NCBI RefSeq assembly: GCF_001429185.1
Contig: NZ_LMIW01000010.1
Span: 248,001-312,000, forward strand
DNA from: Terrabacter sp. Root85
GTDB taxonomy: Bacteria; Actinomycetota; Actinomycetes; Actinomycetales; Dermatophilaceae
DNA: 64,000 nucleotides
Reading direction: 5' to 3'
Under the pieces are notes generated by a model. The model saw nothing but the letters and a program-made list of their open reading frames with translations. It ran no database searches and was not told the DNA's origin. Made by a program: the position numbers and the translations under genes. This document shows positions 8,101-61,785 of this stretch, piece after piece (position 1 is the stretch's first letter; each line of letters starts with the position of its first letter).

Positions 8101-8981
8101 GCGCTGTCTGCCCCAACGGGCACACGTCCGAGGCCGAGGACTACTGCGACACCTGCGGCTCGCCCATCGACGCGAGCGCCCAGCCGGCGGCAGGCGGCGG
8201 TGTCGGGGCCGGTGCCACCGACCCGACGGGCGGCCCGTCCGAGGCGGCGAATGGCGCTGGGACGTCCGGCTCCTCGCTCGACCTCGACCCTCCGGCCCCG
8301 GCAGCCCCCGCGACCCCGGCTCCCGCCGACCCGGCTGCACCGGTGGGTCTCGTGTGCCCCAACTGCCAGACGGAGAACCCCGACGGCGCGCTCTTCTGCG
8401 AGGCCTGCGGATACGACTTCACGACCGGCGCGATGCCGCGTGACCCGTCGGCCGGTCCGGGCGACCTCGCCGACACCGAGCCCGACGGTGAGGCCGTCGA
8501 CCCCGCGGCTGCCGGCTCTGCCGGCGTCGCCGCGGGTGCCGCCGCAGGCGAGCAGGCGTCCACCTCCTTCGAGTGGCTGGCCGAGGTCTGGGTCGACCCG
8601 GACTGGTACCAGACCCAGGAGGCCGAGGACCCTTGTCCCTCGCCCGGCCTGCCGACGATCATGCCGCTGCGCCACCGCAGCGTCCTGCTCGGTCGCGTGT
8701 CCACGAGCAAGAACACCAACCCCGAGATCGACCTGTCGTCCGACCCGGGCGTCAGCCGTCGACACGCCCAGCTGACCACCGACGGCTCGCGCTGGTTCGT
8801 CGAGGACCTCGGCAGCTCCAACGGCACCTTCGTCGGCCCCGCGTCCGGACCGCTCCCCCAGCGCGCCATCGCGGTCGGCCCGAAGACCGAGCTCGGCGAC
8901 GACGACCGCCTCTACGTCGGCGCGTGGACCCGCGTCGTCGTGCGTCGTGCCACGCCCGACGAGGTCGAGGCCTACGCCTGA
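8097..8981 (+). CDS. FHA-domain protein with two zinc ribbons (candidate PknG target)
   Basis: 294 residues from GTG 8097 (GTGA overlap). The N-terminus carries one Cys/His module (CPNGHTSEAEDYCDTCG, residues 5-21) and a second zinc ribbon near residue 84 (CPNCQTENPDGALFCEACG), joined by Ala/Pro/Gly linkers. The C-terminal ~100 residues are an FHA domain with the expected phosphothreonine-binding signature: LLGR, GVSRRHA, and DLGSSNGTFVG. FHA domains read pThr, and in the related GarA/OdhI proteins the N-terminal tail is phosphorylated by Ser/Thr kinases. As the last gene of the pknG operon it is the likely effector or scaffold. Unlike GarA (about 160 residues, no zinc ribbon as I recall) it is long and zinc-ribbon-bearing, so its target need not be the GarA metabolic enzymes. 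Confidence 0.88.
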   Translation: MSAVCPNGHTSEAEDYCDTCGSPIDASAQPAAGGGVGAGATDPTGGPSEAANGAGTSGSSLDLDPPAPAAPATPAPADPAAPVGLVCPNCQTENPDGALFCEACGYDFTTGAMPRDPSAGPGDLADTEPDGEAVDPAAAGSAGVAAGAAAGEQASTSFEWLAEVWVDPDWYQTQEAEDPCPSPGLPTIMPLRHRSVLLGRVSTSKNTNPEIDLSSDPGVSRRHAQLTTDGSRWFVEDLGSSNGTFVGPASGPLPQRAIAVGPKTELGDDDRLYVGAWTRVVVRRATPDEVEAYA

Positions 8982-9039
8982 CGCCTGCCCGCTACCTGAA
9001 CGTCACATGAACTCTGACGACTTTTCGCCCGGGGGCGCC

Positions 9040-9045
9040 TAGGGT
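9040..9045 (+). promoter_or_regulatory. -10 box (TAGGGT) of a probable leaderless transcript
   Basis: TAGGGT fits the actinobacterial TANNNT -10 and lies 8 nt before the GTG at 9054, with no Shine-Dalgarno between them. Transcription would start at or next to the start codon. I see no convincing -35. Confidence 0.45.
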
Positions 9046-9053
9046 GGTGCGAT

Positions 9054-9617
9054 GTGAGCGACCGGGCCCTCCACACCGCCGTCGACATCCCGCAGGTCAT
9101 CGTCGTCACCGGCGTCATGGCTGCGGGCAAGTCGACCGTCTCCCAGCTCCTCGCGGAGCGCTTCACGCGCGCGGTGCACCTGCGCGGTGACGAGTTCCGC
9201 CGCGTCGTCGTGCGCGGCCGCGTCGACATGTCGCCGCACGGCGACCCCGAGGCCGAACGACAGCTCGCGCTGCGCCACGCCATCGCGGCCCACTCCGCCA
9301 ACGAGTACGCCGCGGCCGGCTTCACCGTCGTCGTCCAGGACCTCTTCGTCGGCACGACCCTCCAGCCCTTCCTCGACCGGCTCACGGCGCGACCGCTCAG
9401 CCTCGTCATGCTCGCGCCCGACGTCGGCACCGTGATGCAGCGCGAGTCCGAGCGCGTCAAGGTCGGCTACGGCGACCTCTGGTCGATCCGCGACTTCGAC
9501 CACAAGGTGCGCACCGAGACGCCGCACATCGGCCTCTGGCTCGACAGCTCGCAGCAGACGCCGGACGAGACGGTCGAGGAGATCCTCGCCCGCCTGACCG
9601 AGGCGAGGATCGCCTAG
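9054..9617 (+). CDS. P-loop kinase/phosphotransferase-like protein
   Basis: 187 residues. GTG 9054 is chosen because the nearby ATG at 9052 reads straight into a stop and the TAGGGT box fits a leaderless start. The Walker A motif GVMAAGKST sits at about residues 19-27. The remainder resembles small P-loop kinases and chloramphenicol/shikimate-type phosphotransferases, with DLFVGTTLQPF and a C-terminal DETVEEIL segment. It probably transfers a phosphate from ATP to a small molecule. The acceptor cannot be predicted, and resistance should not be assumed. It sits directly ahead of soxR with no spacer, so the two are probably co-transcribed. Confidence 0.75.
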   Translation: MSDRALHTAVDIPQVIVVTGVMAAGKSTVSQLLAERFTRAVHLRGDEFRRVVVRGRVDMSPHGDPEAERQLALRHAIAAHSANEYAAAGFTVVVQDLFVGTTLQPFLDRLTARPLSLVMLAPDVGTVMQRESERVKVGYGDLWSIRDFDHKVRTETPHIGLWLDSSQQTPDETVEEILARLTEARIA

Positions 9618-10049
9618 GTGTCGGGCCTGACGATCGGGCAGGTCGCCGAGCGCACCGGTGCGGCCACCTCCGCGCTGCGCTACTGGGAGGACCTCGGGCT
9701 CATCGCCTCGGTGCGCACGACGGGCAACCAGCGGCGCTACGAGCGGGCCACGATCCGGCGGGTGTCGTTCATCCGGGCGGCCCAACGGGTCGGGCTGTCC
9801 CTCGAGGAGATCGGGGCAGCACTGTCCACCCTCCCGGACGCCCGCACCCCCACCGCCTCGGACTGGGCCCGCCTCTCGCGCGCCTGGCGCGGCCGGCTCG
9901 ACGAGCAGATCCGCCGCATCGAGAAGCTACGCGACCAGCTCGACTCCTGCATCGGCTGCGGCTGCCTCAGCCTGCGCACCTGCGCGCTCAACAACCCGTC
10001 CGACGTGCTGGCGGACCACGGCCCCGGGGCCGTCCTCCTCGAGCCCTGA
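9618..10049 (+). CDS. soxR: SoxR, MerR-family redox regulator with [2Fe-2S] cluster
   Basis: 143 residues, beginning with GTG immediately after the preceding TAG. An N-terminal MerR winged helix (LTIGQVAERTGAATSALRYW) is followed by the dimerisation helix. The SoxR cluster-binding motif C-x2-C-x-C-x5-C is intact (CIGCGCLSLRTC, about residues 114-125). In actinobacteria SoxR typically responds to redox-cycling compounds and activates a handful of efflux or reductase genes. I see no obvious SoxR target operator next to it, and the only neighbour in its operon is the P-loop protein upstream. Confidence 0.95.
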   Translation: MSGLTIGQVAERTGAATSALRYWEDLGLIASVRTTGNQRRYERATIRRVSFIRAAQRVGLSLEEIGAALSTLPDARTPTASDWARLSRAWRGRLDEQIRRIEKLRDQLDSCIGCGCLSLRTCALNNPSDVLADHGPGAVLLEP

Positions 10050-10231
10050 GCCCGTCGCCTGGTCGGACCGAGGGCGTATGCCATCCGCCGGGCGATGACG
10101 CCGGCGTCCCGCGGTTCGTCCGGCACGTGCCTCGAGCAGGTTTTGTCGTTCTTGTGCGCATGCTCCTCGTACGCGGGACCATCGAGAGGACACCACGATC
10201 GCCGGACGGGACCGAGCGAACAGGGGACACC

Positions 10232-12823
10232 GTGGAGACGCACATCGGCCGAGATCGTCGCACGCGCCGCGCGCTAGGCACTGCGACGCTGCTGCTCCTG
10301 CTGACGCTTGTGGGCGCGTCGGCGTCCAGCGCCCGAGCAGCCCCCCCGACGCCGAGCGACTGCGGTGCTGCCGCGGCACTCGTCAAACAGGGACTACCGC
10401 AACGAGCCCTCGAGCTCGCGGTCGGGTGCGTCAAGGAGGCGGCCCTGGCCCGCACCGAGACACAGACCGCCGTGTCACTCGCGACCAAGGCCGAGGAGGA
10501 GCTCCTCGCCGGCAAGGTCGACTCGGCGGGCGACTACGCGACCGCCGCACTCGCGCACGACCAGGAGAACGCGGAAGCGGCAGCCGTGCTCACCGATGTC
10601 GCTGCCGCAGAGCCGACGATCGCCCGGCTCCAGCATGAGTGGAACGCGTTCGTCGACGAGCAGCTGTCGCCCCTCGGTGGGCTGCTGCTCGTCGTGCTCA
10701 CCGTTCCGCTGCTGCTCCTCGTCGTGGCAAGACTGACAGCCCTCGCCGTCCGGGAGTGGCCCGATGCTGACGACCTCCCGAACGACCGTCTCCGCGGCGC
10801 CGTCCTTCGCGCCGGAATGGCGCTCATGCTGGCCGCCGCGGTGCTCGCCTCGCTCGCCGTTGCAGACGCGGCCACGCCGCCGACGTCGAGGCTCATGACC
10901 TGGACCGTGTTCGGCACCACGATGATCGGGTCGGTCGCCGCCGTGCTGGCGGCCCGACGAGCCGACCAGCGCAAGCTCGACGGCTCCAGCGCGCTTCTGC
11001 TGCTCGCGACGCTCACCGGGGGCCTGGCGCTCGTCGGGCTGGCGGTGCGTCTGCTGTGGGGAGACAACCAGCCACCCACGGTCGAGCTCGCCTCGGTGAT
11101 CGGTCTCGCCGCGCTGGCCGCAACCCTGTCGGTCTGGCTCACCTCCTGGTGGCTGGCCACCCGGATCCGCCTCAACGTCACCGGTCCCAAGGACGCGGCG
11201 GAGATCGGGACGGTCGTCGCCCTGCTCAGCGAGCTCGGCGCGGAGGCGCCGAAGGGACTGGAGGTGCCGCGGGGGGCTGACGTGACGGCTCTCGACGGTG
11301 CCTTCTCGACCTTGCCCGACAACCCCGTTCTCAAGGTGCTCAAGGACCTCGTGCGCAGCCTCTCCGGAGTGACGCCGTGGACCGCGACGATCGAGGGCGA
11401 CTCAAGCGCTCGCGTCGTCACCATGGTCCGCAACGGTCGCTCAGCGGGCTCGGCGATCATCGATCCGATGGTCCTGGGTCTCGTCGCCGAGTCCCCACCG
11501 ACCCCTGCCGCAGCGTCGTCAGAGGCGGCATCCGGGGACTCGGACGCGACGCCCGACGGCACCCCGGACGACCCCACCCTGCGGATGGCGGCCGCGTTCG
11601 TCCTCGTCACGATGGCCTCCAGCCATCGATCGATCAGGCGCGGCCTGGCGGGGACCTCGTCGTGGAAGAGCCTTGGCTACCACTACATCGGCACCACGCT
11701 GCCGCAGACCGGTCGTGACGTCTCACGCTCCGGCGAGCTGCTCGGCCGGGCCCTTTCGGACGACCCGGGCAACCTCGCCGCCGCGCTGGCCTTCCGTCAC
11801 ACCCAGCAGCGGGGCACGGACGACCTGTCGACGTTGCGCGACTACGAGAGCTTCCTCGTCCACTACCGCCGGCGGCTCGTCGGTCTCGAGGGCGAGCTCG
11901 ACGTCGATGCGCTCGCGCTCCGCGCCGAGTACACGCGCGCGCTCACGCTCGTCAACGCGGCATACGCCCAGCACAACCTCGAGGTGACGGTCCTGCCGTC
12001 GCAGGACGACTACCGAGTCACGGCCAAGACGGCGCTCGAGGAGTTCTCGGTCACGGTGGAGCCCGACCCGGTCGACACCGACGGCATCAGCGCGTTCAAG
12101 GCCCAGTACCGTGACGACATCAAGGGCTCCCTGAGGCTCATGGGACTGCCGAGGTCCACCGCGGACGCGGAGCGGCCCACGGGGATCTACGGCATCTACA
12201 ACGAGGCCTGCACGTTCGCGTCCCGCAACGACCTCATGTGGTCAGGCGCACCCGGTCTGGGGTACGACGTCGATGACCTACAGGCCGTGAGGCTGCTGCA
12301 GCACGTCGCGTTCGCCGGCAAGCTGAAGGACTGGGCGGAGCATGACCCCCAGCTCACCGCCTTCAAGCTGCGCCCGGCGTACCGGACCGCCTTCCTCAGC
12401 CCCCCGCGAACGAACTGGTTCGAGCTGACCACGGTCGAGCCCTTGGCCGACCGCCTCAAGGCCATGGGCTACGGCACGCCCCGGGTCGTCGCCCGCGCCA
12501 CGGTCGGCAAGCTCTGCGTCGACACCTACGCCCCGCTGGCTGCATGCGCGGCAGTACGCGAGCTCGCCTGTCTCCACGAGGGACTCACGCAACGGTCGGT
12601 GGCGCTGAGCACGTGGTCGATCGAGATCCTCGACGACCTCGACCGTCGAGGGATGGCCCGTCTCGCCCTCCTCGCGTCCCTGACGAAGACCGAACGTGCT
12701 GCTCTTGCCACCGATGTGGCAAAGAAGGTCGTCCGCGCATGCAGGCCAGCCGCTGACACCGATGCCACCGCTGAGACCGGGCTGGCCAAGCACGTGCGGG
12801 CCTGGTTGCGCCGTCCGTACTGA
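10232..12823 (+). CDS. Large exported/multi-TM protein of unknown function
   Basis: I chose GTG 10232 because an AGGGGA Shine-Dalgarno lies 4-5 nt before it; a GTG at 10127 would add 35 residues without a ribosome site. 863 residues. The N-terminus looks like a signal peptide (basic residues, GTATLLLLLTLVGASAS, then ARA). A helical, TPR-like region rich in Ala and Glu follows (about 35-130), then five hydrophobic helices between about residues 145 and 320. The last ~540 residues are soluble, charged and mostly helical, with no motif I recognise. The large C-terminal part is probably cytoplasmic. It lies between soxR and the cell-wall-hydrolase island but lacks the paired-heptamer operator seen there. 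Confidence 0.75.
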   Translation: METHIGRDRRTRRALGTATLLLLLTLVGASASSARAAPPTPSDCGAAAALVKQGLPQRALELAVGCVKEAALARTETQTAVSLATKAEEELLAGKVDSAGDYATAALAHDQENAEAAAVLTDVAAAEPTIARLQHEWNAFVDEQLSPLGGLLLVVLTVPLLLLVVARLTALAVREWPDADDLPNDRLRGAVLRAGMALMLAAAVLASLAVADAATPPTSRLMTWTVFGTTMIGSVAAVLAARRADQRKLDGSSALLLLATLTGGLALVGLAVRLLWGDNQPPTVELASVIGLAALAATLSVWLTSWWLATRIRLNVTGPKDAAEIGTVVALLSELGAEAPKGLEVPRGADVTALDGAFSTLPDNPVLKVLKDLVRSLSGVTPWTATIEGDSSARVVTMVRNGRSAGSAIIDPMVLGLVAESPPTPAAASSEAASGDSDATPDGTPDDPTLRMAAAFVLVTMASSHRSIRRGLAGTSSWKSLGYHYIGTTLPQTGRDVSRSGELLGRALSDDPGNLAAALAFRHTQQRGTDDLSTLRDYESFLVHYRRRLVGLEGELDVDALALRAEYTRALTLVNAAYAQHNLEVTVLPSQDDYRVTAKTALEEFSVTVEPDPVDTDGISAFKAQYRDDIKGSLRLMGLPRSTADAERPTGIYGIYNEACTFASRNDLMWSGAPGLGYDVDDLQAVRLLQHVAFAGKLKDWAEHDPQLTAFKLRPAYRTAFLSPPRTNWFELTTVEPLADRLKAMGYGTPRVVARATVGKLCVDTYAPLAACAAVRELACLHEGLTQRSVALSTWSIEILDDLDRRGMARLALLASLTKTERAALATDVAKKVVRACRPAADTDATAETGLAKHVRAWLRRPY

Positions 12824-41814: not shown

Positions 41815-42744
41815 GTGGCCACTCCCCCCGTCATCGACTGGCTGCTCGCCGGCGACGTGGCCGTGGCCTACGTCACGACGCGCGACCTGCTCGGGCGCGA
41901 GGACCCGGGCCTCCAGGCCCGCATCGCCACGGAGGGTGTCGGCGCAGCGCTGCTCGCCGCGCGGGCACCCGACGGGCACTGGGGTCGAGGGTTCTACCGG
42001 CCGAAGTGGACGTCGAGCCACTACACGCTGCTCCAGCTCGGCCAGATCGGCCTGGCCCCGCAGAACGCGGCAGCCCGGGAGACGGTGGGGCTCATCCTCG
42101 ACGGCTGCAAGGCCGACGACGGCGGCGTCAGCCCGTCGCCGCCCGCCAAGCCGAGCGATGCCTGCATCAACGGCATGGCGCTGGGCTACGCGAGCCGGTT
42201 CGGCGCGTCCGAGGACGAGCTGCGCAGCGTCGTCGATCTGCTGCTGCGCGAGGTCGTGGCGGACGGGGGCTTCAACTGTCGGCACAACCGTCCTGGTGTT
42301 CGAGTCACGCACTCGTCCGTGCACACGACCGTGTGCGTCATCGAGGGCATCACCGCCTACCTCAGCGCCGGGGCCGCCTACCGCGCCGACGAGCTGGAGC
42401 GGGCCCGGTCGTCGGCCGCCGAGTTCCTCCTGCGTCACCGGCTCCTGCGCAGCGAGCGCACCGGCGAGGTGATCCGTGCCGAGTTCACGGGTCTGCACTA
42501 CCCGGCCCGGTGGCACTACGACATCCTTCGTGGCCTGGATTCCCTTGCAGCTGCAGGCATCCCGCGCGACGGGCGGATGGACGAGGCGCTGTCGATCATC
42601 CACGCTCGGCGCCGGGCCGACGGCCGCTGGACACCGAGCCGCGCCTACCCCGGCCTGACCCACGTGCCCAACGAGCGGGTGGGTGCGCCGAGCCCGTGGG
42701 TCACGCTGATCGCCGAGCGCGTGCTCCTCGCGTATCCTGACTGA
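41815..42744 (+). CDS. Alpha/alpha-toroid (prenyltransferase/squalene-cyclase-like) protein
   Basis: 309 residues from GTG 41815. Repeated helix pairs with aromatic turns (GHWGRGFYRPKWTSSHYTLLQLGQ, VADGGFNC, SSVHTTVCVIEGI, DGRWTPS) resemble the QW-type repeats of prenyltransferase and terpene-cyclase folds. The DCTAE- or DxDD-type catalytic acids of cyclases are not visible, so function is unknown. No TM segment. The trp leader peptide begins one base after its stop, and the probable leader promoter lies inside its last codons. Confidence 0.7.
   Translation: MATPPVIDWLLAGDVAVAYVTTRDLLGREDPGLQARIATEGVGAALLAARAPDGHWGRGFYRPKWTSSHYTLLQLGQIGLAPQNAAARETVGLILDGCKADDGGVSPSPPAKPSDACINGMALGYASRFGASEDELRSVVDLLLREVVADGGFNCRHNRPGVRVTHSSVHTTVCVIEGITAYLSAGAAYRADELERARSSAAEFLLRHRLLRSERTGEVIRAEFTGLHYPARWHYDILRGLDSLAAAGIPRDGRMDEALSIIHARRRADGRWTPSRAYPGLTHVPNERVGAPSPWVTLIAERVLLAYPD
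42733..42738 (+). promoter_or_regulatory. -10 box for the trp leader transcript
   Basis: TATCCT within the 3' end of the preceding gene is 7 nt from the leader-peptide ATG, so the leader may be leaderless. Confidence 0.5.
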
Positions 42745-45668: not shown

Positions 45669-46721
45669 ATGGCACAGGCGTCGGTGGGACTGGCGGTGAC
45701 GCCTGCGGCGCAGCGCGGGTCGTCGTGGCGCCCGGCCCTGCTCTGGGTGCAGGACCACGTGACCGGGCGCGACCGTGAGCTCGCCCGGTTGGACTGGCAG
45801 ATCGAGAGCGTCCGGGCGCGCTTGGCGGGACAGCCCTTGCGAGCCTCCGAGGCGTGGGAGGGCCGGGACGACGCCCGCGACCGCCCGGACCCGCAGGACG
45901 AGGTGCTCCTGCTCCTCGACAAGGCAGCCGTCGCGCGCGAGCAGCACGACGCCGGCAAGGGGTGGGCCCTGGTCAGCCGGGCCGAGGAGCTCGAGGTCTC
46001 GTTCCTCGGGCGTCACCAGCTCGAGGCCGCCCGGCACAGCCTCCGGTGCGAGATCGCGCTCGACGAGGAGGCCGGCTGGTGGCGTGAGGCCGCGCTCGAC
46101 CTGTTGCGCCGGATGTCGGCCGGACCTACGGGCCCTACGGGTACCGCGGGCTCCACGGGCTCCACGGGCACGGCGGCGACGGGTGCCAATGACCCGGGTG
46201 AGGAGCCTCCCGCCCGCCGGTCGACACCGTCGGACCTTCGGGCGGACCGGGAGTACCTGCGCGAGGCGCGGCGGATCCGCAACGACCTCAACAGCAGCCG
46301 CTACACCGCGATGGAGGCCAACACGGCCCAGCGGATCTGGCTGTCGGTGATCCTCCTCGGGCTGCTCGCCGTCGCCGGCTGGCTCATCTGGGCCCACCTG
46401 AGCACGCGGTCGCCCGCGCTCGACACGCCGTGGCTCGCCTCGTCGGCGGCCGTCGCCGGGACCATCGGCGCCGTGACGAGCGCGATGCAGCGCCTGTGCG
46501 CCCGCCCGCGGGCCCAGCCTCCGTCGCACCTCGGGTCGCTGACCACCGCCGTCGTGCACGCCCTGATCGGTTCGGTGGCGGCGCTGACCTTCTACTTCGC
46601 GGCGGCCGGTGGCCTCATCACCTTCCCCGGTGCGCACGCCGACCTGCTCATCGTGCTCGGCGCCTTCGGGTCCGGGTTCGCCGAGCGGCTCGTCGTCTAC
46701 GTGCCGCGGAACAAGTCCTGA
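45669..46721 (+). CDS. Membrane protein with collagen-like linker, function unknown
   Basis: 350 residues from ATG 45669, with GGGAGGA 5 nt upstream. The N-terminal ~155 residues are soluble and helical. A short linker follows with six collagen-like Gly-X-Y triplets (GPTGPTGTAGSTGSTGTA, about residues 155-172), encoded by repetitive DNA. After a charged segment come four hydrophobic helices (about 220-240, 258-278, 295-320, 328-345). I recognise no family. The large helical domain is probably cytoplasmic. Confidence 0.72.
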   Translation: MAQASVGLAVTPAAQRGSSWRPALLWVQDHVTGRDRELARLDWQIESVRARLAGQPLRASEAWEGRDDARDRPDPQDEVLLLLDKAAVAREQHDAGKGWALVSRAEELEVSFLGRHQLEAARHSLRCEIALDEEAGWWREAALDLLRRMSAGPTGPTGTAGSTGSTGTAATGANDPGEEPPARRSTPSDLRADREYLREARRIRNDLNSSRYTAMEANTAQRIWLSVILLGLLAVAGWLIWAHLSTRSPALDTPWLASSAAVAGTIGAVTSAMQRLCARPRAQPPSHLGSLTTAVVHALIGSVAALTFYFAAAGGLITFPGAHADLLIVLGAFGSGFAERLVVYVPRNKS

Positions 46722-52327: not shown

Positions 52328-54133
52328 TCACTTCCTGACGATGCGGATCTGCAGCGCCTCGAGGCGCAGCGAGCGCCCGGTCGTGCCGGCCGTCGCGCCG
52401 TTGGACACCCAGCCCATCCAGCCGATGTTCTGCACGTGGACGCGATAGCTGATGGTGTAGCGCGTCGCGAGGTTGCCCGTGAGCTTCAGCTGGATCGCCT
52501 CCATGCGGAGCGACCGCCCCACCGTGCCGATGACGGCGCCGGGAGCCTGGTAGCCCATCCAGCCGATGTTCTGCACGTGAGCGTTGCCGACGACGGACCC
52601 GGTCGTCGTCGTGTTGGTGTCGGTGATCTTGATCGCCTCGGCGCGCAGGGACCGACCCGTCGTCCCGGTCATCTGACCGGTCGACACGGTGGGCTGCCAG
52701 CCGATGTTCTGCACGTGGGCGGAGTAGCGCAGGACCGGCACGTTCGCACCGTAGGCATGGGCGAGGTACGAGGCGCGCTGCGCGGCCCACGAGCGGAGCA
52801 GCGCCACCTCGGCGGCCCAGGTCGACGTGATCGGCGAGTGCCCGCCGTTGAAGGCGATCACCGAGGTCTGGCCGAGGATGTTGGGCCAGACGACGAAGTT
52901 GTGGGCGGCCGACTGCAGCAGCTGCGTCTGGTAACCGTCGATCGTGGAGGGCACGTCGTTGACGAAGGGCTTCAGCGTCGCGTACGTCGCGTTGGCCTGC
53001 GCCGCGAACGCCTGGTTGCGGAAGAGCTGCGTCCACCAGTCGAAGGGGCCGTTGCCCTTGATCGTCAGGAGCTCGTTCTTGACGTAGTCCTCGGTGGGGT
53101 TGCCGCCGCGGTTGGTGGTGGCGTAGTTGCCGAGGGAGATGTCGTAGTCCCAGACCGGTCCGGCGTGCAGCTTGTCGGTCGGGCCGTCCTTGTAGAAGAA
53201 GACGCTGGACAACGCGACGTCAGGGTTCTCGACGAACTCCGAGACGAAGTAGTACTTGACGAACGAGTCGACGTCGATGAGGGCGCTGATCTTGGTCCAG
53301 TCCGGATTCCGTGCGTAGAGGAGCCCCTCGAGGGTGTTGATCGTGCTCTGGACGTCGTCCCACCCGGCCTGGGTGTCGGCATCGAGCACCACTCCCGGGT
53401 CGTTCTTGAACCCGACATAGGAGTCCTTGAGCGTGAAGATCGACCTGCTCCTGGCCGTCGTGAAGTGGATCGGTTCGGCGGCGCCGAAGTGGCTGTCCAT
53501 CTCGACGAGGACGCCCTGGGGGCTCGTCAGCGCGACGTGGCTGTCCGGCTTGGTCGGGTCGAACTTCGTGACGGTCACCTTGTCGGTCAGCAGGTAGCTG
53601 CCGAGATCCTGGCCGTTGACGACGAGGTCGACGAACCGCGACTCCGGGGTGGCGACCATGCCGAACTGGCGGGCGAGCTCGAGCGTCGCCTTGTTGCGCA
53701 TGAGTGACGGGTCGGCCCGGTTGGCGATGAGGATCCACGTCTTGCCCGGCAGCATGCCCAGGATCGCGGTCTTCTTGTCGAACTTCAGCTGGTAGGACTT
53801 CTTGTCGAGGGTCCAGGTGAAGTTGCCGTGGCCCTTGATGGTCGGGCAGCCGACGCCGAGGGGGGCGACGTCCGTGGGCAGTGTCGTGCACGCGAGCGTC
53901 TGGGTGGTCGTGCCGTCGGCGACGTCGACCTGGCTGGCGACGGGAACGTCCTTGTTGGCATGGATGAAACTCAGGGAGTCCTTCGCGGGCAGGTCGGTCA
54001 GCGTCACGTAGACGGTCGGCAGGTCCGTGACCGTCGCGGGTGGCGTGGGCACGGCCGCGGTCGCGGCCACGGCGGGCCCCACCAGGGCCAGCGTCGCGAA
54101 GAGCGACAGGCTCGCAACTCGAAGGTTTCTCAT
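52328..54133 (-). CDS. Secreted CotH-kinase-family protein with three ChW-type repeats
   Basis: 601 residues from ATG 54133 (a TTG two codons earlier is possible). No Shine-Dalgarno is visible. A signal peptide (MRNLRVASLSLFATLALVG) precedes a CotH domain with typical segments: GCPTIKGHGNFTW, KKSYQLKFDKK, WILIANRADPSLMRN, GSYLLTDKV, SFVKYYFVSEFVENPD and GPVWDYDIS, where the acidic residues align with the kinase-type active site. The last ~130 residues are three repeats of the form HVQNIGW ... GTTGRSLRAEAI, the clostridial hydrophobic (ChW) repeat, implying surface attachment or binding. It has less GC-biased codon use around its start than its neighbours. Extracellular protein phosphorylation is possible but unproven. 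Confidence 0.88.
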   Translation of the reverse strand: MRNLRVASLSLFATLALVGPAVAATAAVPTPPATVTDLPTVYVTLTDLPAKDSLSFIHANKDVPVASQVDVADGTTTQTLACTTLPTDVAPLGVGCPTIKGHGNFTWTLDKKSYQLKFDKKTAILGMLPGKTWILIANRADPSLMRNKATLELARQFGMVATPESRFVDLVVNGQDLGSYLLTDKVTVTKFDPTKPDSHVALTSPQGVLVEMDSHFGAAEPIHFTTARSRSIFTLKDSYVGFKNDPGVVLDADTQAGWDDVQSTINTLEGLLYARNPDWTKISALIDVDSFVKYYFVSEFVENPDVALSSVFFYKDGPTDKLHAGPVWDYDISLGNYATTNRGGNPTEDYVKNELLTIKGNGPFDWWTQLFRNQAFAAQANATYATLKPFVNDVPSTIDGYQTQLLQSAAHNFVVWPNILGQTSVIAFNGGHSPITSTWAAEVALLRSWAAQRASYLAHAYGANVPVLRYSAHVQNIGWQPTVSTGQMTGTTGRSLRAEAIKITDTNTTTTGSVVGNAHVQNIGWMGYQAPGAVIGTVGRSLRMEAIQLKLTGNLATRYTISYRVHVQNIGWMGWVSNGATAGTTGRSLRLEALQIRIVRK

Positions 54134-54930: not shown

Positions 54931-54949
54931 CCCCAGCACACGCACTCCC

Positions 54950-54982
54950 GACGGGGGCCGCCCACCACGGGCGGCCCCCGTC
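54950..54982. terminator. Terminator after the FMN reductase gene
   Basis: Perfect 14-bp stem GACGGGGGCCGCCC (54950-54963) with GGGCGGCCCCCGTC (54969-54982) and a 5-nt loop, 20 nt after the stop. Confidence 0.9.
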
Positions 54983-55165
54983 GTCGCTCCCCGATGGCGT
55001 ATGCCGTCACTCCGCCGGGCTCCCCCGCCGCCGGGGCGTCTGCCGGAGTATCAGACCCGCCCCCACGCGCTCCGTCTGACAGGTACGCCGTTCGGTCGAT
55101 TCGCCTGAAGTGAGGCGTGCCCGGTGCTTGACTGGACGGGTGCCACGGATGGGAGGGCGGTTGTG

Positions 55166-55207
55166 ATGGGCACACAGCTGCGCGGGCCGGCAGAGGTCGC
55201 GCCATGA
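55166..55207 (+). CDS. Possible 13-codon upstream ORF coupled to the protease gene
   Basis: ATG 55166, 8 nt after GGAGGG, encodes MGTQLRGPAEVAP. Its stop overlaps the ATG of the protease gene (ATGA). The upstream ORF has the better ribosome site, so protease translation could depend on it. No conservation evidence is available. Confidence 0.4.
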   Translation: MGTQLRGPAEVAP

Positions 55208-56259
55208 CCCATGTCCTCGACGCGCTCCCGCTCGACTTCACCGACCCGAAGGTGCAGCAGCTGGAGACCGCGCTGATCCAGACCTTCCCGACGGCGGGTG
55301 ACCTGCGCATGGTCCTGCGCAAGTCCGGCATCTCCGAGGCGTACGTCAACCTCCTGCAACCGACGGCCGCCGCATGGCAGGAGGTGCTCGACGTCGCCCG
55401 CAAGCAGGACCGCCTCAGGGTCCTCGTCGCAGTGGTGATCCGCGAGCCGAACTCGGCCGCGATCCGGCCCATGCTCGAGGCGCTCCTCGCCGACACGCTG
55501 GCAGCGACACCGAGCGCCGAGGCACCTCCTCCCGACGAGCCGATCGCCTGGAAGAGCGACCCCACCCCCGACGGGCTCGAGCGCCAGATCGGGGCCCAGT
55601 CGACCCTGCTCGACGTGTCCTTCCTCCAGCGCGGCATCGAGATCAGCCCGTCGGTCGTCAAGCTCGTCGTCACGCTGAACGACGAGATGCGTTACAACGG
55701 AACGGGATTCCGCATCTCCGACGACCTACTCCTCACCAACCACCACGTCCTCTTCGACGACCAGGGTCCGGCCACGACCGTCGAGGCGTGGTACGGCTAC
55801 GAGCGGTCGTTCGCAGGGGCGACCCGGGAGCCACAGGTCATCGCCTGCGACCAGGGCACGATCGTGGGGCGCAAGGACCACGACTGGGCAGTCGTCAAGG
55901 TCGCGAGTCCCCTTCCGGCACAAGCGCGCCCGATCGAGATCGCGGGGGCACCGACGCCGGCGGTGGCGGACCGGGTCTACATCATCCAGCACCCCGACGG
56001 GCGGGTGAAGCAGATCGGGATGGTGCACAACACCGTGGTCAAGGTCGACGACGACAGGATCGGCTACCTCACCGACACCGAGGGCGGCTCGTCGGGCTCG
56101 CCGGTCTTCGACGAGCAGTGGCGCCTCGTCGGGCTGCACCACCGGTGGGAGACGGACGTCGTGGGCGGCCGACGGCGCATCTACAACCAGGGAGTCCGCA
56201 TCGAGCGCGTCGTCGAGGGCCTGGCGGCCGCAGGCGTCGTCCTGGAGGGGGCGGCCTGA
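55204..56259 (+). CDS. Trypsin-like serine protease with N-terminal effector-associated domain
   Basis: 351 residues from ATG 55204. Residues ~10-97 form a small helical domain (LETALIQTFPTAGDLRMVL ... AAWQEVLDVARKQDRLRVL) that looks like the effector-associated (EAD1-type) adaptors described for bacterial conflict systems. After a Pro/Ala linker comes a trypsin-fold protease with what appears to be a complete triad: H181 in LLTNHHVLF, D227 in KDHDWAVV and S297 in EGGSSGSPVF. There is no signal peptide, so it acts in the cytoplasm and would need tight control. The same adaptor occurs in the next gene, suggesting homotypic docking. It is the likely effector of the four-gene cassette. Confidence 0.88.
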   Translation: MTHVLDALPLDFTDPKVQQLETALIQTFPTAGDLRMVLRKSGISEAYVNLLQPTAAAWQEVLDVARKQDRLRVLVAVVIREPNSAAIRPMLEALLADTLAATPSAEAPPPDEPIAWKSDPTPDGLERQIGAQSTLLDVSFLQRGIEISPSVVKLVVTLNDEMRYNGTGFRISDDLLLTNHHVLFDDQGPATTVEAWYGYERSFAGATREPQVIACDQGTIVGRKDHDWAVVKVASPLPAQARPIEIAGAPTPAVADRVYIIQHPDGRVKQIGMVHNTVVKVDDDRIGYLTDTEGGSSGSPVFDEQWRLVGLHHRWETDVVGGRRRIYNQGVRIERVVEGLAAAGVVLEGAA

Positions 56260-56261
56260 TC

Positions 56262-57410
56262 ATGGGCTACCTCGACCACCGGTTCGACCCCGGCACCCCG
56301 GCCGGGCAGTACGTCGTGGAGCGACTCGGGTCCCGCTACTTCGAGAAGCAGCCGATCCAGGAGCTGGCCCTGGCGGCCGGCGTGCAGCGCGACCAGATCT
56401 TCTGGGAGCAGAAGGCGTCGCAGCTGTGGATCGACGTGCTCGAGACGGCGTGGAAGCAGCAACGGTTGCGTCTGCTCTTCATCGCCATCTCCCAGGACGC
56501 CGGCGCCGACCGGATCTTCCAGGACCTCGCGGCGGAGCCGACCGATCACGAGGTCGTCGAGATCCCGCCCCAGTCGGGTCAGTCGCAGCCGGTGGTGGCC
56601 GGAGCCGTGGCCGCCGTGGCCGAGGCGGTCGGGGCGATGTTCACCGCCGCGGTCCTCTGGGACGACGTGCCGCTCATCGACCGCACCGACCTGCGCGGCC
56701 ACGTGCAGCGGATGCTCGGACCCGGCGGTAGGCGGGCGCTGCTCGTCAGAGGCCCCAGCGGTGCCGGCAAGACCCACACCCGCCAGTTCATCCGCTACGT
56801 ATCCGAGAACGCCGTGCCACCGAACGGCACGAAGGCGAAGGTCAGCCCCGTCGACGCCGCCCGCCGCGCCGGCAGCCCGATCGACGTCCGTGAGCTGGCC
56901 GACACGGTCGCGCGCTTCGTCGTCGGCGAGCCCGCGCCGAACTTCGACCCGACCGCCCAGCCGCAGACCGTCGTGTGGCTCTTCAAGGACTGGCTCGTGG
57001 CGGAGGTGGCCGCCAAGGGCGACATCCAGGACTGCTGGCTCGTCTTCGACGGCTTCGACCGGACGACCGCCACGGCCGCGGCGCTGCAGCTCGTCATGGA
57101 GCTGGCGCAGTCGGCCGCGGTCCGTGACCTCGGGCCGGTGCGCGTCATCGTGCTCGGCTACGACGACCCCCTCTCCGAGCCGGACCAGGCCCTCGTCGAG
57201 CCCCTCCGCCACCCCGGCGACGACGACGTCAAGGCGTTCATCCGCGCGTACGCGACACGGGCGCAAGGCATCTCACCCGGCGCTGACGCAGTCGACGCCG
57301 TCTTCGACGAGCTGGTCAGCGACGGCGGTCCCGTCGCCGACCGCCGGCTGGTCGAGCTCGGTCCGAGCGCGTACGCCCTCTGTCTCGACGTGTTCGGGGC
57401 GCTCCCGTGA
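56262..57410 (+). CDS. AAA/P-loop ATPase sharing the protease's adaptor domain
   Basis: 382 residues from ATG 56262, with GGAGGGGG 10 nt upstream. Residues ~15-92 repeat the helical adaptor of the preceding protease (SQLWIDVLETAWKQQRLRLL against AAWQEVLDVARKQDRLRVL). A hydrophobic Ala/Val segment (~111-130) follows. The P-loop NTPase has Walker A GPSGAGKT at 164-171 and a Walker B-like DCWLVFDGFDR further on. I recognise no sensor domain. It would couple NTP binding to control of the protease through the shared adaptor. Its stop overlaps the start of the next gene (GTGA). Confidence 0.82.
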   Translation: MGYLDHRFDPGTPAGQYVVERLGSRYFEKQPIQELALAAGVQRDQIFWEQKASQLWIDVLETAWKQQRLRLLFIAISQDAGADRIFQDLAAEPTDHEVVEIPPQSGQSQPVVAGAVAAVAEAVGAMFTAAVLWDDVPLIDRTDLRGHVQRMLGPGGRRALLVRGPSGAGKTHTRQFIRYVSENAVPPNGTKAKVSPVDAARRAGSPIDVRELADTVARFVVGEPAPNFDPTAQPQTVVWLFKDWLVAEVAAKGDIQDCWLVFDGFDRTTATAAALQLVMELAQSAAVRDLGPVRVIVLGYDDPLSEPDQALVEPLRHPGDDDVKAFIRAYATRAQGISPGADAVDAVFDELVSDGGPVADRRLVELGPSAYALCLDVFGALP

Positions 57411-60331
57411 GCGGGTCCCCGTCCGGGCGGACCCCCGTCGTCACGGCCGAGGACGTCCGGGCCCGGCTGGCCCAGCGGGCGTCGGCACGGTCGGCACCGT
57501 CAGCCCCGAGGCCCCAGCCCACCGCGCCGGAGGCCTCGGGGGCAGCCGCCGTGCCCTCGTCGACGAGGGACGTCGAGCCTGCCGCGACGGGCCCCACCAG
57601 TGACGCAGCCGCCCCGGACCCCGCTCGGCAGCGCCTGCGCGAGCGGGTCGCCTTGCTCGACTACTTCACCGTCGACGCCCTCGAAGGCCGTACGACGCGA
57701 GAGACCCCGCGACACCAGGAGATCGACGGCTTCATCGGCACCGACTGCGAGCTCGTCACCACCAGGTCAGGAGGGGGCGCATGGCGCCTGCGGCCCGAGG
57801 TGCGCGCCGACGTCCTGAGGTCACTCGGCCCCGGCCGGGCAGTCGCGCTGACGACCGGGCGGTGGGCCGTCGCCCCCGCACCCGACGACGTGACCCACCG
57901 GATGGCGGTCCGTCTGATCCACGGGGACACGACGCTCCGCGCGCTCGCGCCGGCCGAGCTGACCGGCATACTCAAGGCCGCCGTCTGGCTGGAGGGTCTC
58001 GGGCTCGACCTGCCGGCCGCCGCGGACGTGCAGTCGGCCCTCGACCTCGCCAACGTCCTCACCCCGCTGCGGGCGGTGTCCACGCCGGACTTCGTCGGAC
58101 GCGAGGTCGAGCTGGCCCAGCTCGAGGCCCACGTCATGGGTGGACCCGGAGGCCTCCCCCTCGCCCTCCACGGCCCCGGCGGCGTCGGCAAGTCGACCCT
58201 CCTCGCGACCTTCGTGCTCGACCACATCGAGGGGACAGCCGCGCGCCCGCCGATGCCCTTCGCATACCTCAGCTTCGAGCGGGCCGAGCTCGACCCGGAG
58301 TTCCCGATCGGGCTCATCGCCGAGGTGTGCCGTCAGCTCGCTCTCCAGTCGACTGACCTCGCCGGGCCGCTCGGCGAGCTGCGCCGGGAGATCGTCGCCG
58401 TCGTCGAGGCGGAGGCGGCGCTGCAGCGCGAGACGTCGAGCTCTCGGGGGCTCGGCACCAAGGACGCCGTGCGTCGGCACGTCGACGAGGACTCGTTCCT
58501 CATGGAGCTGAGCCAGCGGCTGCGGCGCGCCTGGGGCAGCAAGCCGGTGCTCGTCGTCCTCGACACGTTCGAGGTCGCGCAGCGGCGGCGCCGCTCGACC
58601 CTGGGCCGTCTCAACCGCACGCTGCAGAGCCTCCAGCGTCAGCTGCCGTCGCTGCGGGTCGTCGTCGCGGGTCGGGCCGAGGTGACCGAGCTGCAGGTCG
58701 AGAACCGACCGCTCGAGGGGCTCGACGACACCCAGGCGAGGCAGTTCCTGCGCCGCGCGGTCGCCGACCTCCCGGTGACCGACGCGCTCGTGGACTCCGT
58801 CGTCGAGCAGGTCTCGGGCAACCCGCTGAGCCTGCGGCTCGCCGCCGACCTCATGCGCCGCGAGGGTCCCTCCGTGCTCGCCACGAAACGTGGTCGACGG
58901 CGTCTGCTCTTCGACCTCCGGGCGGAGCAGGTGCAGGGCGTGCTCTACCGCCGGATTCTCGACCACGTGGCCCGCCCGATCCGGCCGCTCGCCAACCCGG
59001 GGCTCGTCGTCCGGCAGATCACGCGTGAGGTCATCAGCGACGTCCTGGCGGTGCCGTGCGGTCTCGGGGAGCTCGCGCCGGAGCGGGCGGCCGAGCTCTT
59101 CGAGATGCTGCGCGGAGAGGTCTCGCTCGTCACCGAGTCGCGCTCCGGCGTCCTCGTGCACCGCGCCGACGTCCGCCAGGAGATGCTGCCGCTGCTCGAC
59201 GCGGAGAGCCCGGAGCGGGTTGCCGAGATCCACCGCCGCGCCGTCGCGTTCTACGGTGCCCGCTCCGGCACCGACGACCGCATCGAGGGGCTCTACCACC
59301 GGCTCATGCTCGGCCAGGCCTCGTCGACGCTCGACGCCCACTGGGACCGCGGCGCCGGGCCGTTCCTCGAGCCGGCGATGAGCGAGCTGCCGCCGTCGTC
59401 GCGGGTCTACCTCGCCGGCAAGCTGCGGCTCGAGGTCGACGCCGCCGACCTCGCCGAGGCCGACTACACCGCCTGGGCGCGGCAGGCCACGAAGCAGGCC
59501 AGGTCGCTGCTCGACTCCGGTCGCCCGGCCGCCGCCTGGGACCTCCTCGCCGCCGACGACCGCCAGCCGCGCCTCGTCGAGGTCAGCCGACTGCGCATCG
59601 AGGCGCTGGCCACCCTCGGCCGTCACGAGGAGGCGATGGCCGAGGTCGACGCGGCGGTGAGCGCCGCCGAGGAGCGTCCCCTGTCGCTCGACTACATCGA
59701 GCTGTGCATCGTCGGCGGCCGCGTCGCGGAGGACGCGGGCGACCTGGAGCGGGCGGCCCGGCTCTTCGTCGACGCCCGGGAGAGCGCCACCGACTTCGGG
59801 GCGCGGTCCGCGGCGCTGACGGCCGGCGTCGGCGTCCTGCGGATGGTCCGGCGCCAGGGAGGCCTCGGGTCGCAGTCGGCGACCCGCCGTCTGCGCGGTG
59901 AGCTCATCGCCGAGGCGGCCGGGCTCACCGAGCAGGACAAGGCGAGCCACCCCGGTCTCGTGCGCGAGCTCGCGGCAGAGCTCGGGGACGCCGTGCCGAG
60001 CCTGCTCGCCGACGCCTCCCTCCACGTCGGGGTCACCTCGGCCGGCGACGACGCCTCGGGCCACGACGCGAGCACCCTCGACGTCATCCAGGCCAACATC
60101 CGCCGAACGATCGAGAGCGACCCCACCATCGGACCGACCGACCGAGACCTCGACGAGGACGAGGAGGAGACCGCACCCGACGTCGGCGACCTGTCGTCGG
60201 CGGTGCAGGGCCACGCGCTCGCCGAGGCCGTCAAGGCTCTGCCCGACGACCTCGACCTGCGCGAGTCGGTGAAGAAGTACTGGCAGGGCGAGGCCGACCG
60301 TCCGTCGTTCGACTACAACGCCGACAGCTGA
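57407..60331 (+). CDS. STAND-type NTPase with C-terminal TPR-like repeats
   Basis: 974 residues from GTG 57407. The N-terminal ~70 residues are disordered (Ala/Pro/Ser), followed by a winged-helix-like domain (~75-225). The NTPase has FVGREVELAQLE just before Walker A GPGGVGKST (256-264), Walker B VLVVLD (381-386) and AGR (421-423) as the sensor-type Arg. GNPLSLRLAADLM fits the GxP motif of STAND proteins. From about 600 onward it is helical repeats, probably TPR, ending in an acidic tail. STAND proteins detect a cue with their repeats and oligomerise. This one has no effector domain of its own, so it probably signals to the protease/ATPase pair encoded just upstream. Confidence 0.88.
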   Translation: MSGSPSGRTPVVTAEDVRARLAQRASARSAPSAPRPQPTAPEASGAAAVPSSTRDVEPAATGPTSDAAAPDPARQRLRERVALLDYFTVDALEGRTTRETPRHQEIDGFIGTDCELVTTRSGGGAWRLRPEVRADVLRSLGPGRAVALTTGRWAVAPAPDDVTHRMAVRLIHGDTTLRALAPAELTGILKAAVWLEGLGLDLPAAADVQSALDLANVLTPLRAVSTPDFVGREVELAQLEAHVMGGPGGLPLALHGPGGVGKSTLLATFVLDHIEGTAARPPMPFAYLSFERAELDPEFPIGLIAEVCRQLALQSTDLAGPLGELRREIVAVVEAEAALQRETSSSRGLGTKDAVRRHVDEDSFLMELSQRLRRAWGSKPVLVVLDTFEVAQRRRRSTLGRLNRTLQSLQRQLPSLRVVVAGRAEVTELQVENRPLEGLDDTQARQFLRRAVADLPVTDALVDSVVEQVSGNPLSLRLAADLMRREGPSVLATKRGRRRLLFDLRAEQVQGVLYRRILDHVARPIRPLANPGLVVRQITREVISDVLAVPCGLGELAPERAAELFEMLRGEVSLVTESRSGVLVHRADVRQEMLPLLDAESPERVAEIHRRAVAFYGARSGTDDRIEGLYHRLMLGQASSTLDAHWDRGAGPFLEPAMSELPPSSRVYLAGKLRLEVDAADLAEADYTAWARQATKQARSLLDSGRPAAAWDLLAADDRQPRLVEVSRLRIEALATLGRHEEAMAEVDAAVSAAEERPLSLDYIELCIVGGRVAEDAGDLERAARLFVDARESATDFGARSAALTAGVGVLRMVRRQGGLGSQSATRRLRGELIAEAAGLTEQDKASHPGLVRELAAELGDAVPSLLADASLHVGVTSAGDDASGHDASTLDVIQANIRRTIESDPTIGPTDRDLDEDEEETAPDVGDLSSAVQGHALAEAVKALPDDLDLRESVKKYWQGEADRPSFDYNADS

Positions 60332-60370
60332 CCGCTGACGGGCCACCGCATCACGCGAGAGGGGACGTCA

Positions 60371-61009
60371 ATGCCCACGAAGCCGAAGGCCGATCCGCCG
60401 GACCCGAAGCCCGATCCCGCGCCGGGTCCGGCACAGCCCGGGCCGGGGGAGCCGGACCCTGCGCCGGCGCCCGCGCCGGCGCCCGCGCCGTCGACCAGTG
60501 CCTCCGCGAGCGGTGCGAGCTGGCGCTGGCTCTTCTGGGCCGCCATCGCGATCGTCTTCGCCTACGTCGTGTTCGTCCTGCTCGCCTTCGTCCGCGCCGA
60601 CGACAAGCTGCCCGAGACGGACTGGAGCCGGTCGGTCTACGTGCTGCTCGGTGTCGAGGCCCTCGCGTTCACGGCCGTCGGCTGGCTCTTCGGCCGCGAA
60701 GTGCACCGCGGTGAGGCGCAGGAGGCGCAGAAGCACGCCGACGAGGCGAAGCACGTCGCGACGCTCGAGAAGGACCGCGCCGATACCGCGAAGGACGCCG
60801 CAGCACAAGAACGTTCGCGGGCCGACGCCGCCCAGACCAAGGGCCGGATCCTCGCGAAGGCGGTTCACTCCCTCACGGCGCCGGAGGAGACCGGCGGGGG
60901 GGACGAGAGGTCGCCTGCCGGCGGTCGCACCCGCGGCATCGACGGCCCGGCCGCCGGCTCGACGCAGGCACTCCGCAACATCGCCGACGACCTCTTCCCG
61001 TCGGACTGA
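60371..61009 (+). CDS. Two-TM membrane protein with coiled coil, last gene of the protease/STAND cassette
   Basis: 212 residues from ATG 60371, with AGAGGGGA 5 nt upstream and 39 nt after the STAND gene. Residues 1-48 are a Pro/Ala-rich tail (PAPAPAPAPAP). TM helices lie at about 51-74 and 88-108. A charged coiled coil follows (~112-165) and then a Gly-rich tail, both predicted in the cytoplasm. It resembles no family I know. It could anchor the cascade to the membrane or be the membrane-acting or immunity component. Confidence 0.75.
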   Translation: MPTKPKADPPDPKPDPAPGPAQPGPGEPDPAPAPAPAPAPSTSASASGASWRWLFWAAIAIVFAYVVFVLLAFVRADDKLPETDWSRSVYVLLGVEALAFTAVGWLFGREVHRGEAQEAQKHADEAKHVATLEKDRADTAKDAAAQERSRADAAQTKGRILAKAVHSLTAPEETGGGDERSPAGGRTRGIDGPAAGSTQALRNIADDLFPSD

Positions 61010-61194: not shown

Positions 61195-61785
61195 ATGTCG
61201 CACGACGACGCCAACACGTCTCACAGCCCGAGCCGACGCACGGTCGTCAAGGGTGCCGCCTGGACGATGCCCGCGGTGCTCGTCGCCGCGCCGGCACCGG
61301 TGGTGGCGGCGTCCGTGGCCCCGCTCACCTTCAGCGGATCCGCCTGCAAGCTCCCGGGCGGCTCGTCGGACACGTACAAGGGCTACGTCTTCGAGCTCGT
61401 CGCCACGAGCGCGGGCGGTTCCGACAACACGGTCACGGTCATCACCGGGGTGACCGTCGACGGGATCGCTGAGCCGCACTACGCCGTGTCGGTCAAGACC
61501 GGCTCCTGCACGTGCTCCTCGTGCGGCAGCGCCCCGACGAACCACCAGTGGTGCACCCAGAGCGGCGCCGGCACGCAGCGGGTGCTGCTCTACACCGACG
61601 GAGCGGCGAGCGGCACGAGCTCCAACAGCGAGGTCTGCGTCACCTACACCCGCTACCGCTGCGACTGCTCGCCCGTGGTCGGCTCGCAGCCGGTCACGAT
61701 CTGCAGCGGTCGGCGCTCGACGCCGCCGATCACGGGCGGCGGCGGCGCCTGCCGGATCTCCGACGTCTTCCCCCTGCCCGCCTGA
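61195..61785 (+). CDS. Tat-exported cysteine-rich protein of unknown function
   Basis: 196 residues from ATG 61195, with CCGGAGG 4 nt upstream. The N-terminus is a twin-arginine signal (SRRTVVKGAAWTM, then an Ala/Val core). The mature part is beta-rich and Ser/Thr-rich with ten Cys residues, including TGSCTCSSCGS and RCDCS. They probably form disulfides or bind metal outside the cell. Export by Tat implies folding before export, which suits a cofactor or metal-binding protein. I recognise no family. Confidence 0.78.
   Translation: MSHDDANTSHSPSRRTVVKGAAWTMPAVLVAAPAPVVAASVAPLTFSGSACKLPGGSSDTYKGYVFELVATSAGGSDNTVTVITGVTVDGIAEPHYAVSVKTGSCTCSSCGSAPTNHQWCTQSGAGTQRVLLYTDGAASGTSSNSEVCVTYTRYRCDCSPVVGSQPVTICSGRRSTPPITGGGGACRISDVFPLPA

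Follow-up and report, generated by a model that had tools for sequence, protein, structure and literature searches.

We asked whether four closely spaced genes of Terrabacter sp. Root85, encoding a protease, an ATPase, a STAND NTPase and a small membrane protein, form a bacterial conflict system and, if so, whether that system is an undescribed one, as a sequence-only reading of the DNA had proposed. The window (the whole stretch of DNA that was analysed) is 64,000 nucleotides long, and the features discussed below lie within it as follows.

54949-54983, no strand assigned: GC-rich inverted repeat, candidate hairpin; 31 of 35 bases agree with the opposite strand at the corresponding position of genome G008.
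55166-55207, + strand: 13-residue ORF; its stop overlaps the PROT start codon (ATGA); 11 of 13 residues identical in G008.
55204-56259, + strand: PROT, 351 aa; EAD1 adaptor (residues 11-89) and cytoplasmic trypsin-fold serine protease (H181/D227/S297).
56262-57410, + strand: ATP, 382 aa; EAD1-homologous N-terminus (about residues 1-95) and P-loop ATPase.
57407-60331, + strand: STAND, 974 aa; winged-helix-like N-terminal region, AAA_16 NTPase (GPGGVGKS, VLDTFE) and TPR-like C-terminus.
60371-61009, + strand: TM, 212 aa; Pro-rich N-terminus, two membrane helices, coiled coil, GGDE linker and C-terminal LFP segment.

The reading frames agreed with the gene order and spacing first reported: PROT and ATP are separated by 2 nt, STAND starts 4 nt inside ATP, and 39 nt lie between STAND and TM. 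The span first given, 55166 to 61009, ends with TM; its left edge, 55166, falls on an ATG that is not in the PROT frame and opens the 13-residue ORF. PROT starts at 55204, the first ATG, GTG or TTG of its frame after a stop. This short ORF is a possible leader for translational coupling of PROT, or it could represent chance; the GC-rich repeat, which lies upstream of the cassette and follows the FMN reductase gene, likely forms a hairpin. All four genes proved genuine, with intact and conserved sequences. Comparison of the window with G008 (92-93% identical) gave dN/dS values of 0.144 for PROT, 0.147 for ATP and 0.155 for STAND, and comparison of G007 with G003 gave 0.12-0.33 across all four genes; with ratios in the 0.12-0.33 range, the cassette genes are under purifying selection. 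Chance adjacency of the genes was ruled out by these ratios and by the conserved gene order described below.

PROT matched Trypsin_2 (E 2.3e-24) and EAD1 (E 6.8e-11), both above the Pfam cut-off. Its H181, D227 and S297, called a triad by motif, were invariant across six aligned orthologues, in agreement with the apparently intact triad noticed at the outset. The best matches of a PROT profile to solved structures were Spl, V8 and other glutamyl endopeptidases (PDB profiles), and PADLOC-DB 2.0.0 returned four matches in the protease region, the best to RT-Protease_XI (2.1e-9). All nine PROT orthologues have a Thr five residues before the catalytic Ser and a His fifteen residues after it, a spacing which we take to be that of the Glu pocket of V8 protease. 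This spacing is not specific: 23 proteases were inspected for it, 19 gave the motif, and 15 of these had both residues; three proteases, including the trypsin+NucA protein of L042, had Leu at +15. The glutamyl endopeptidase likeness and the Thr/His spacing only hint that PROT may cleave TM.

No Pfam family scored above cut-off on ATP of the window, EAD1 was not matched there at E<=1 either, and neither ATP nor TM had a match in PADLOC-DB 2.0.0. Even so, the P-loop lysine (K170) of ATP and D263 of its WLVFDGFD were invariant in six of six aligned sequences; a P-loop ATPase had been called from the letters alone.

The further claim, that PROT and ATP begin with the same helical adaptor, was assessed using leave-one-out HMMs of the two N-termini, built with the window excluded (eight relatives on the ATP side) and searched against 3098 six-frame ORFs from 30 loci. 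The ATP N-terminus HMM matched window PROT at E 8.3e-17, and the PROT N-terminus HMM matched window ATP at E 2.1e-11. At E<=10 the ATP N-terminus HMM detected 19 ORFs: nine ATP (the eight relatives' own rows matching by construction), eight PROT, and from L017 another two proteins that bear an EAD. A whole-ATP profile, containing nine ATP rows and no PROT row, was run against 149 family genomes with up to 13 first-look candidates scored per genome; at E<=1e-6 it found five genomes, each with two places corresponding to ATP and PROT. Both the PROT relative and the ATP relative of L040, a plasmid locus of Paracoccus, lie above the Pfam EAD1 cut-off; in L041 and L046 the EAD profiles matched neither the protease nor the ATPase. 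A coincidence of helical composition was ruled out as the source of the resemblance by the leave-one-out HMMs and the 149-genome search. The shared adaptor therefore stands as reciprocal profile homology by sequence HMMs, and the outcome that would have counted against the proposal, unrelated N-terminal domains, did not arise. Across the window genome a single protein reaches Pfam level for EAD1 (15 of 15 candidates scored), which leaves PROT and ATP as the sole detected partners of one another; ATP-profile searches of that genome, which scored 4 of 49 candidates in one case and 13 of 45 in the other, list only these two. Homotypic coupling has been proposed for a same-EAD pattern of this kind (PMC7159879). 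The predicted structure of EAD1 is an all-helical bundle (pLDDT 75) with no significant PDB match.

STAND was described as a 974-residue STAND/TPR NTPase; the length is exact and AAA_16 is above the Pfam cut-off (5.3e-11), with TPR_16 present only below cut-off (20.8 vs 32.7 bits). The Walker A and DTFE motifs are conserved in aligned relatives. PADLOC-DB 2.0.0 gave one weak Cas11e-labelled match (E 0.009), and comparison with 50,697 phage records gave no match. The model of the N-terminal region (pLDDT 88) starts with a winged-helix-like fold, by matches of middling Z, and Foldseek found no significant match for it. No EAD was detected on STAND, so the link between the PROT/ATP pair and STAND is not homotypic by sequence.

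The order protease-ATPase-STAND was found in 12 loci, namely the window, L008-L012, L014, L017, L032 and the plasmids L040, L041 and L046, which come from Actinobacteria and Alphaproteobacteria and, in one case, from a Bacteroidota plasmid. In six of the 12, STAND is followed by a TM homologue (the window, L008, where it is truncated, L009, L010, L011 and L014), representing two families, with the L011 TM from the second; a search of ORFs of at least 60 aa did not find TM in the other six (L012, L017, L032, L040, L041 and L046). Homologues that never occurred together outside this strain would have spoken against the proposal, and co-occurrence beyond the strain is what was seen. ATP is present in 4/9 genomes of the genus and 5/149 of the family (window included in the genus count), and in at least 3/396 genomes of the order; its profile matches at least 8/394 class genomes at E<=1e-8, most via the ATPase part only. 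The order and class counts both include the window genome and are lower bounds (four candidates scored per genome). Family searches round G402 and G381 recovered the centres only (1/121 and 1/120). Within the genus, the cassette is flanked by genes for an acetyl-CoA synthetase and a DEAD-box helicase; relative to the FMN-reductase gene it is downstream in G000 and G008 and upstream in G003 and G007. The corresponding stretches of G001, G004, G005 and G006 do not contain it, and G002, a 74% complete genome, had no match to the marker gene. The pattern looks like repeated gain and loss of the cassette at one place.

The two hydropathy peaks of TM (residues 56-74 and 89-107) are consistent with the two-TM coiled-coil protein first described; the TMs of the G007 and G003 cassettes have a single membrane peak at the hydropathy threshold used. 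The protein is small, with a conserved membrane-proximal GWLFGREVHR, a coiled coil and no catalytic motif, and Pfam gave nothing above cut-off on it. Matches of 1.3e-40 or better came from the same five of 149 family genomes as ATP (G008 at 1.3e-40), and two weak matches (7.1e-5 and 3.3e-5) came from family genomes without ATP; because one genus supplies four of these five genomes, the co-occurrence of TM with ATP amounts to few independent events. In G008, TM runs into the remnant of the next gene and its LFP end is lost, with the other three genes intact, so either TM is dispensable there or the G008 copy no longer works. This truncation and the six core-order loci without TM imply that TM is replaceable or dispensable. 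A lone TM copy, 84% like that of the window, occupies the site of the window cassette in G007.

Beyond the family, TM matched one other of the 394 class genomes, and was present in 5/200 genomes of the order to which that genome belongs (that genome included). In all five, TM immediately precedes a protein whose CHAT domain is above the Pfam cut-off; one TM-CHAT genome, G997, is from a second genus and has different flanking genes. The linker sequence GG[DF]E occurs in all six trypsin-side proteins (one being the lone G007 copy) and in none of the five on the CHAT side. The G-x-x-E position could be aligned in 11/11 TM homologues (six trypsin-side, five CHAT-side), and the conserved LFP segment ends all 11, a set that does not include the truncated G008 TM. 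The CHAT-side operon (L078, 9335-17680, and L085-L088) comprises the TM homologue, a CHAT protein with an AAA_16-like region (above cut-off in L085 only), a large STAND-like protein of 1540-1671 residues and an unassigned protein of 386-430 aa. The large protein of L078 has NNH1 above and AAA_16 below cut-off and no STAND-profile match; that of L086 has a P-loop region matched by the STAND profile (5.6e-17), and the other three are 63-85% identical to that of L078. This operon is a candidate conflict system of the caspase type that shares its membrane partner with the cassette. The presence of TM homologues beside a CHAT protease and a STAND-like protein suggests that TM may be an interchangeable, possibly protease-activated membrane effector. 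TM is the newest part of the cassette and the part most worth experiment.

The protease, ATPase and STAND modules were also found in other arrangements. Among other Actinobacteria, the order is ATP-STAND-protease in L033, L034 and L035, ATP and STAND are fused as one protein in L036, and in L037 (9834-15095) and L038 (5167-10428) ATPase, STAND NTPase, EAD5 (E 8.5e-52 and 1.4e-49, respectively) and trypsin are contained in one 1753-residue protein. A second trypsin gene adjoins this protein, and L037 has a NucA endonuclease gene as well. The ATPase profile matched two plasmid-encoded trypsin proteins of 601 and 690 residues next to STAND genes, in Polaromonas (E 4.3e-14) and Rhizobium (E 2.9e-5), and a 630-residue fused trypsin-ATPase of the same-genus genome G001 (E 2.3e-6), each time in the C-terminal part; without the window these E values were 9.7e-12 (Polaromonas), 0.0036 (Rhizobium) and 8.4e-6 (G001). 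It did not match the protease proteins of L042 and L044. The G001 locus (L039, 5888-12253), in a genome without a cassette of the window type, has a trypsin gene, the 630-aa trypsin-ATPase and a STAND gene that encodes 1098 aa, an architecture like that of LypA/LypB.

The effector slot is variable. Endonuclease_NS/NucA lies beside core-like genes in L017, L037, L042 and L043, in L017 and L042 as a trypsin+NucA protein; an alpha/beta-hydrolase-like gene (below the Pfam cut-off) is immediately upstream in L012 and L035; L032 has a PGAP1-like (alpha/beta hydrolase) domain above cut-off at the STAND C-terminus; and the effector-slot proteins of L040 and L041 have no Pfam match. Four proteins of L017 (Nocardioides ungokensis, 1414-10621), including two extra proteases, carry EAD-type domains; the locus also has its trypsin+NucA protein, and its STAND gene is in two pieces in simple gene calling.

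These arrangements were compared with systems already described. As set out in PMC13236601, LypA consists of a CARD, a trypsin and a divergent ATPase without Walker residues, LypB has an N-terminal domain, an AAA ATPase and TPR, and LypABC has been co-opted for cell lysis that releases gene-transfer agents. The window cassette resembles this CARD-NLR kind, as far as that text describes it, in that a helical adaptor stands N-terminal to a trypsin-like protease, an ATPase is linked to that protease, the AAA/STAND-TPR protein is encoded separately and the effector varies, and in that the window-type ATPase profile matches the C-terminal ATPase of trypsin-ATPases adjoining STAND genes. STAND supplies the NLR-like AAA+/STAND module with TPR-like repeats (TPR_16 below cut-off); the protease-linked ATPase is present as a separate gene, identified as such via the fused trypsin-ATPase matches and not via LypA itself. 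The differences are that the window ATPase is its own gene with its own EAD1-type domain, and has a P-loop where the LypA ATPase is reported in that text without Walker residues; that the adaptor is EAD1, whose model has no significant PDB match; and that a two-helix membrane protein is present in place of a gasdermin, phospholipase or endonuclease, no such Pfam domain being found in the four proteins at E<=1. By described architecture, PROT plus ATP can be read as corresponding to a split LypA, and STAND to LypB. In the STAND tree, which contains architectural look-alikes of CARD-NLR proteins and from which LypB is absent, split and fused forms were separated weakly, with low support and long branches; the G003/G007 version grouped with Intrasporangium and not with the window (support 92/93, under the tool's firm mark).

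EAD coupling adaptors were published in 2020 (PMC7159879). As described in the sections consulted, the cassette is like the EAD-coupled systems, and the "System 3" NucA-peptidase among them (Kaur), in that two neighbouring genes share EAD1 and one of them carries an enzyme (the same EAD on PROT and ATP), and in having a trypsin peptidase, and a STAND as in some operons. It differs in its separate EAD1-ATPase, its two-helix membrane protein and its lack of NucA, which is absent from the four proteins and found in L017, L037, L042 and L043. The MoxR-vWA, GAP1/GTPase or NucA core of such systems was likewise absent from the four proteins by Pfam, the core here being ATP plus STAND. The CHAT/STAND-like operons share a TM homologue directly before a protein combining protease and ATPase, and a large STAND-like protein; unlike the cassette, they have a caspase-like CHAT protease whose protein also contains the ATPase-like region, TM as the first gene and a remote STAND-like protein. 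In the Hachiman/AVAST nuclease-protease pairs and the caspase-nuclease (canu) system, as given in PMC12799240, a trypsin-like or caspase protease cuts a pro-effector to activate it; there the effector is a gated nuclease, and here cleavage of TM is a proposal.

The description of the cassette as an undescribed system thus held in part. EAD coupling (PMC7159879) and the CARD-protease-ATPase plus NLR core (PMC13236601) are known from those papers, whereas the four-gene form with TM, i.e. an EAD1-protease/EAD1-ATPase/STAND/two-helix cassette, was not found in the literature searched, which included passages from PMC8195603 and PMC10907252 and mostly did not cover subscription papers, so that this absence is weak evidence. 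The conflict-type cassette is of the EAD/CARD-NLR kind in altered form, and not wholly undescribed.

As the ATPase profile matches fused protease-ATPases, we read the cassette, with moderate confidence, as an EAD1-based, split variant of the CARD-NLR-type abortive-infection system, in which a STAND-triggered protease would act on TM. STAND would be both sensor and switch, and PROT and ATP would be held together through homotypic EAD1 contacts so as jointly to equal a single CARD-protease-ATPase of the LypA type. Once triggered, STAND would bind nucleotide and oligomerise, and the oligomer would draw in the PROT/ATP pair, activating the protease by proximity. Active PROT would then act on the product of the fourth gene, here TM, which would fill the slot held elsewhere by a gasdermin, hydrolase or endonuclease; TM, when cut or freed of its LFP segment, would perturb the membrane and halt the infected cell, which we infer to be a defence against phage. 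Against this explanation, no phage gene or defence island ties the cassette to phage, and the EAD1 model (pLDDT 75, no significant PDB match) does not establish a CARD fold. Several results given above also weigh against it: STAND bears no detected EAD, six core loci have no TM and that of G008 is truncated, the ATPase profile missed the protease proteins of L042 and L044, and the tree separates split and fused forms weakly. We offer more tentatively, as a possibility short of an even chance, that TM is the founding member of a family of membrane effectors activated by proteolysis, comparable to gasdermin and unrelated to it, common to trypsin-like and CHAT NLR-type operons and switched on when a cut after the conserved linker Glu removes the LFP segment.

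TM could instead be a membrane anchor or sensor that keeps the complex at the membrane and reports envelope events such as phage entry, with the protease itself killing by cutting host or phage proteins. Proteases are direct killers in other systems, and the small size of TM, its conserved GWLFGREVHR and coiled coil, its lack of a catalytic motif and its pairing with two protease types would all suit an anchor. Anchors are usually required, yet TM is missing from half of the 12 core loci, several of which carry different candidate effectors; we consider this account rather unlikely, noting that sequence alone does not separate an anchor role of TM from an effector role. That the cassette derives from a conflict system and was co-opted to regulate housekeeping or development has a precedent in LypABC (PMC13236601), and its neighbours (acetyl-CoA synthetase, FMN reductase, DEAD-box helicase) are ordinary, with no defence gene recognised. 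Set against this are the patchy presence (4/9 same-genus and 5/149 family genomes), a scatter that makes a conserved housekeeping function less expected, and the two neighbouring insertion sites and divergent versions within one genus, which leave co-option improbable. A decaying or neutral remnant without present function, to which the truncated G008 TM and the lone G007 copy might point, is very improbable given the intact frames, conserved motifs and selection estimates (0.144-0.155 for the core, window vs G008; 0.12-0.33 for four genes, G007 vs G003).

The split, EAD1-based variant, our preferred reading, links predicted EAD-coupled conflict systems with the experimentally studied CARD-NLR systems. 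The protease-ATPase-STAND triad exists as separate EAD1 genes, as a fused protease-ATPase and within one 1753-residue protein, and a small membrane protein accompanies trypsin- and caspase-type versions alike. If it is true that TM is cut and then damages membranes, this would be a second, non-gasdermin route to pyroptosis-like death in bacteria.

The search for known defence genes nearby, which the sequence-only reading had advised, recognised none among ten neighbouring genes scanned with Pfam. Neighbour proteins at 41815-42744, 45747-46721 and 61195-61785 of the window had no Pfam match at E<=1e-4. The gene at 52328-54133 (- strand) encodes a CotH kinase family domain together with three C-terminal "clostridial hydrophobic W" repeats, here in an actinobacterium.
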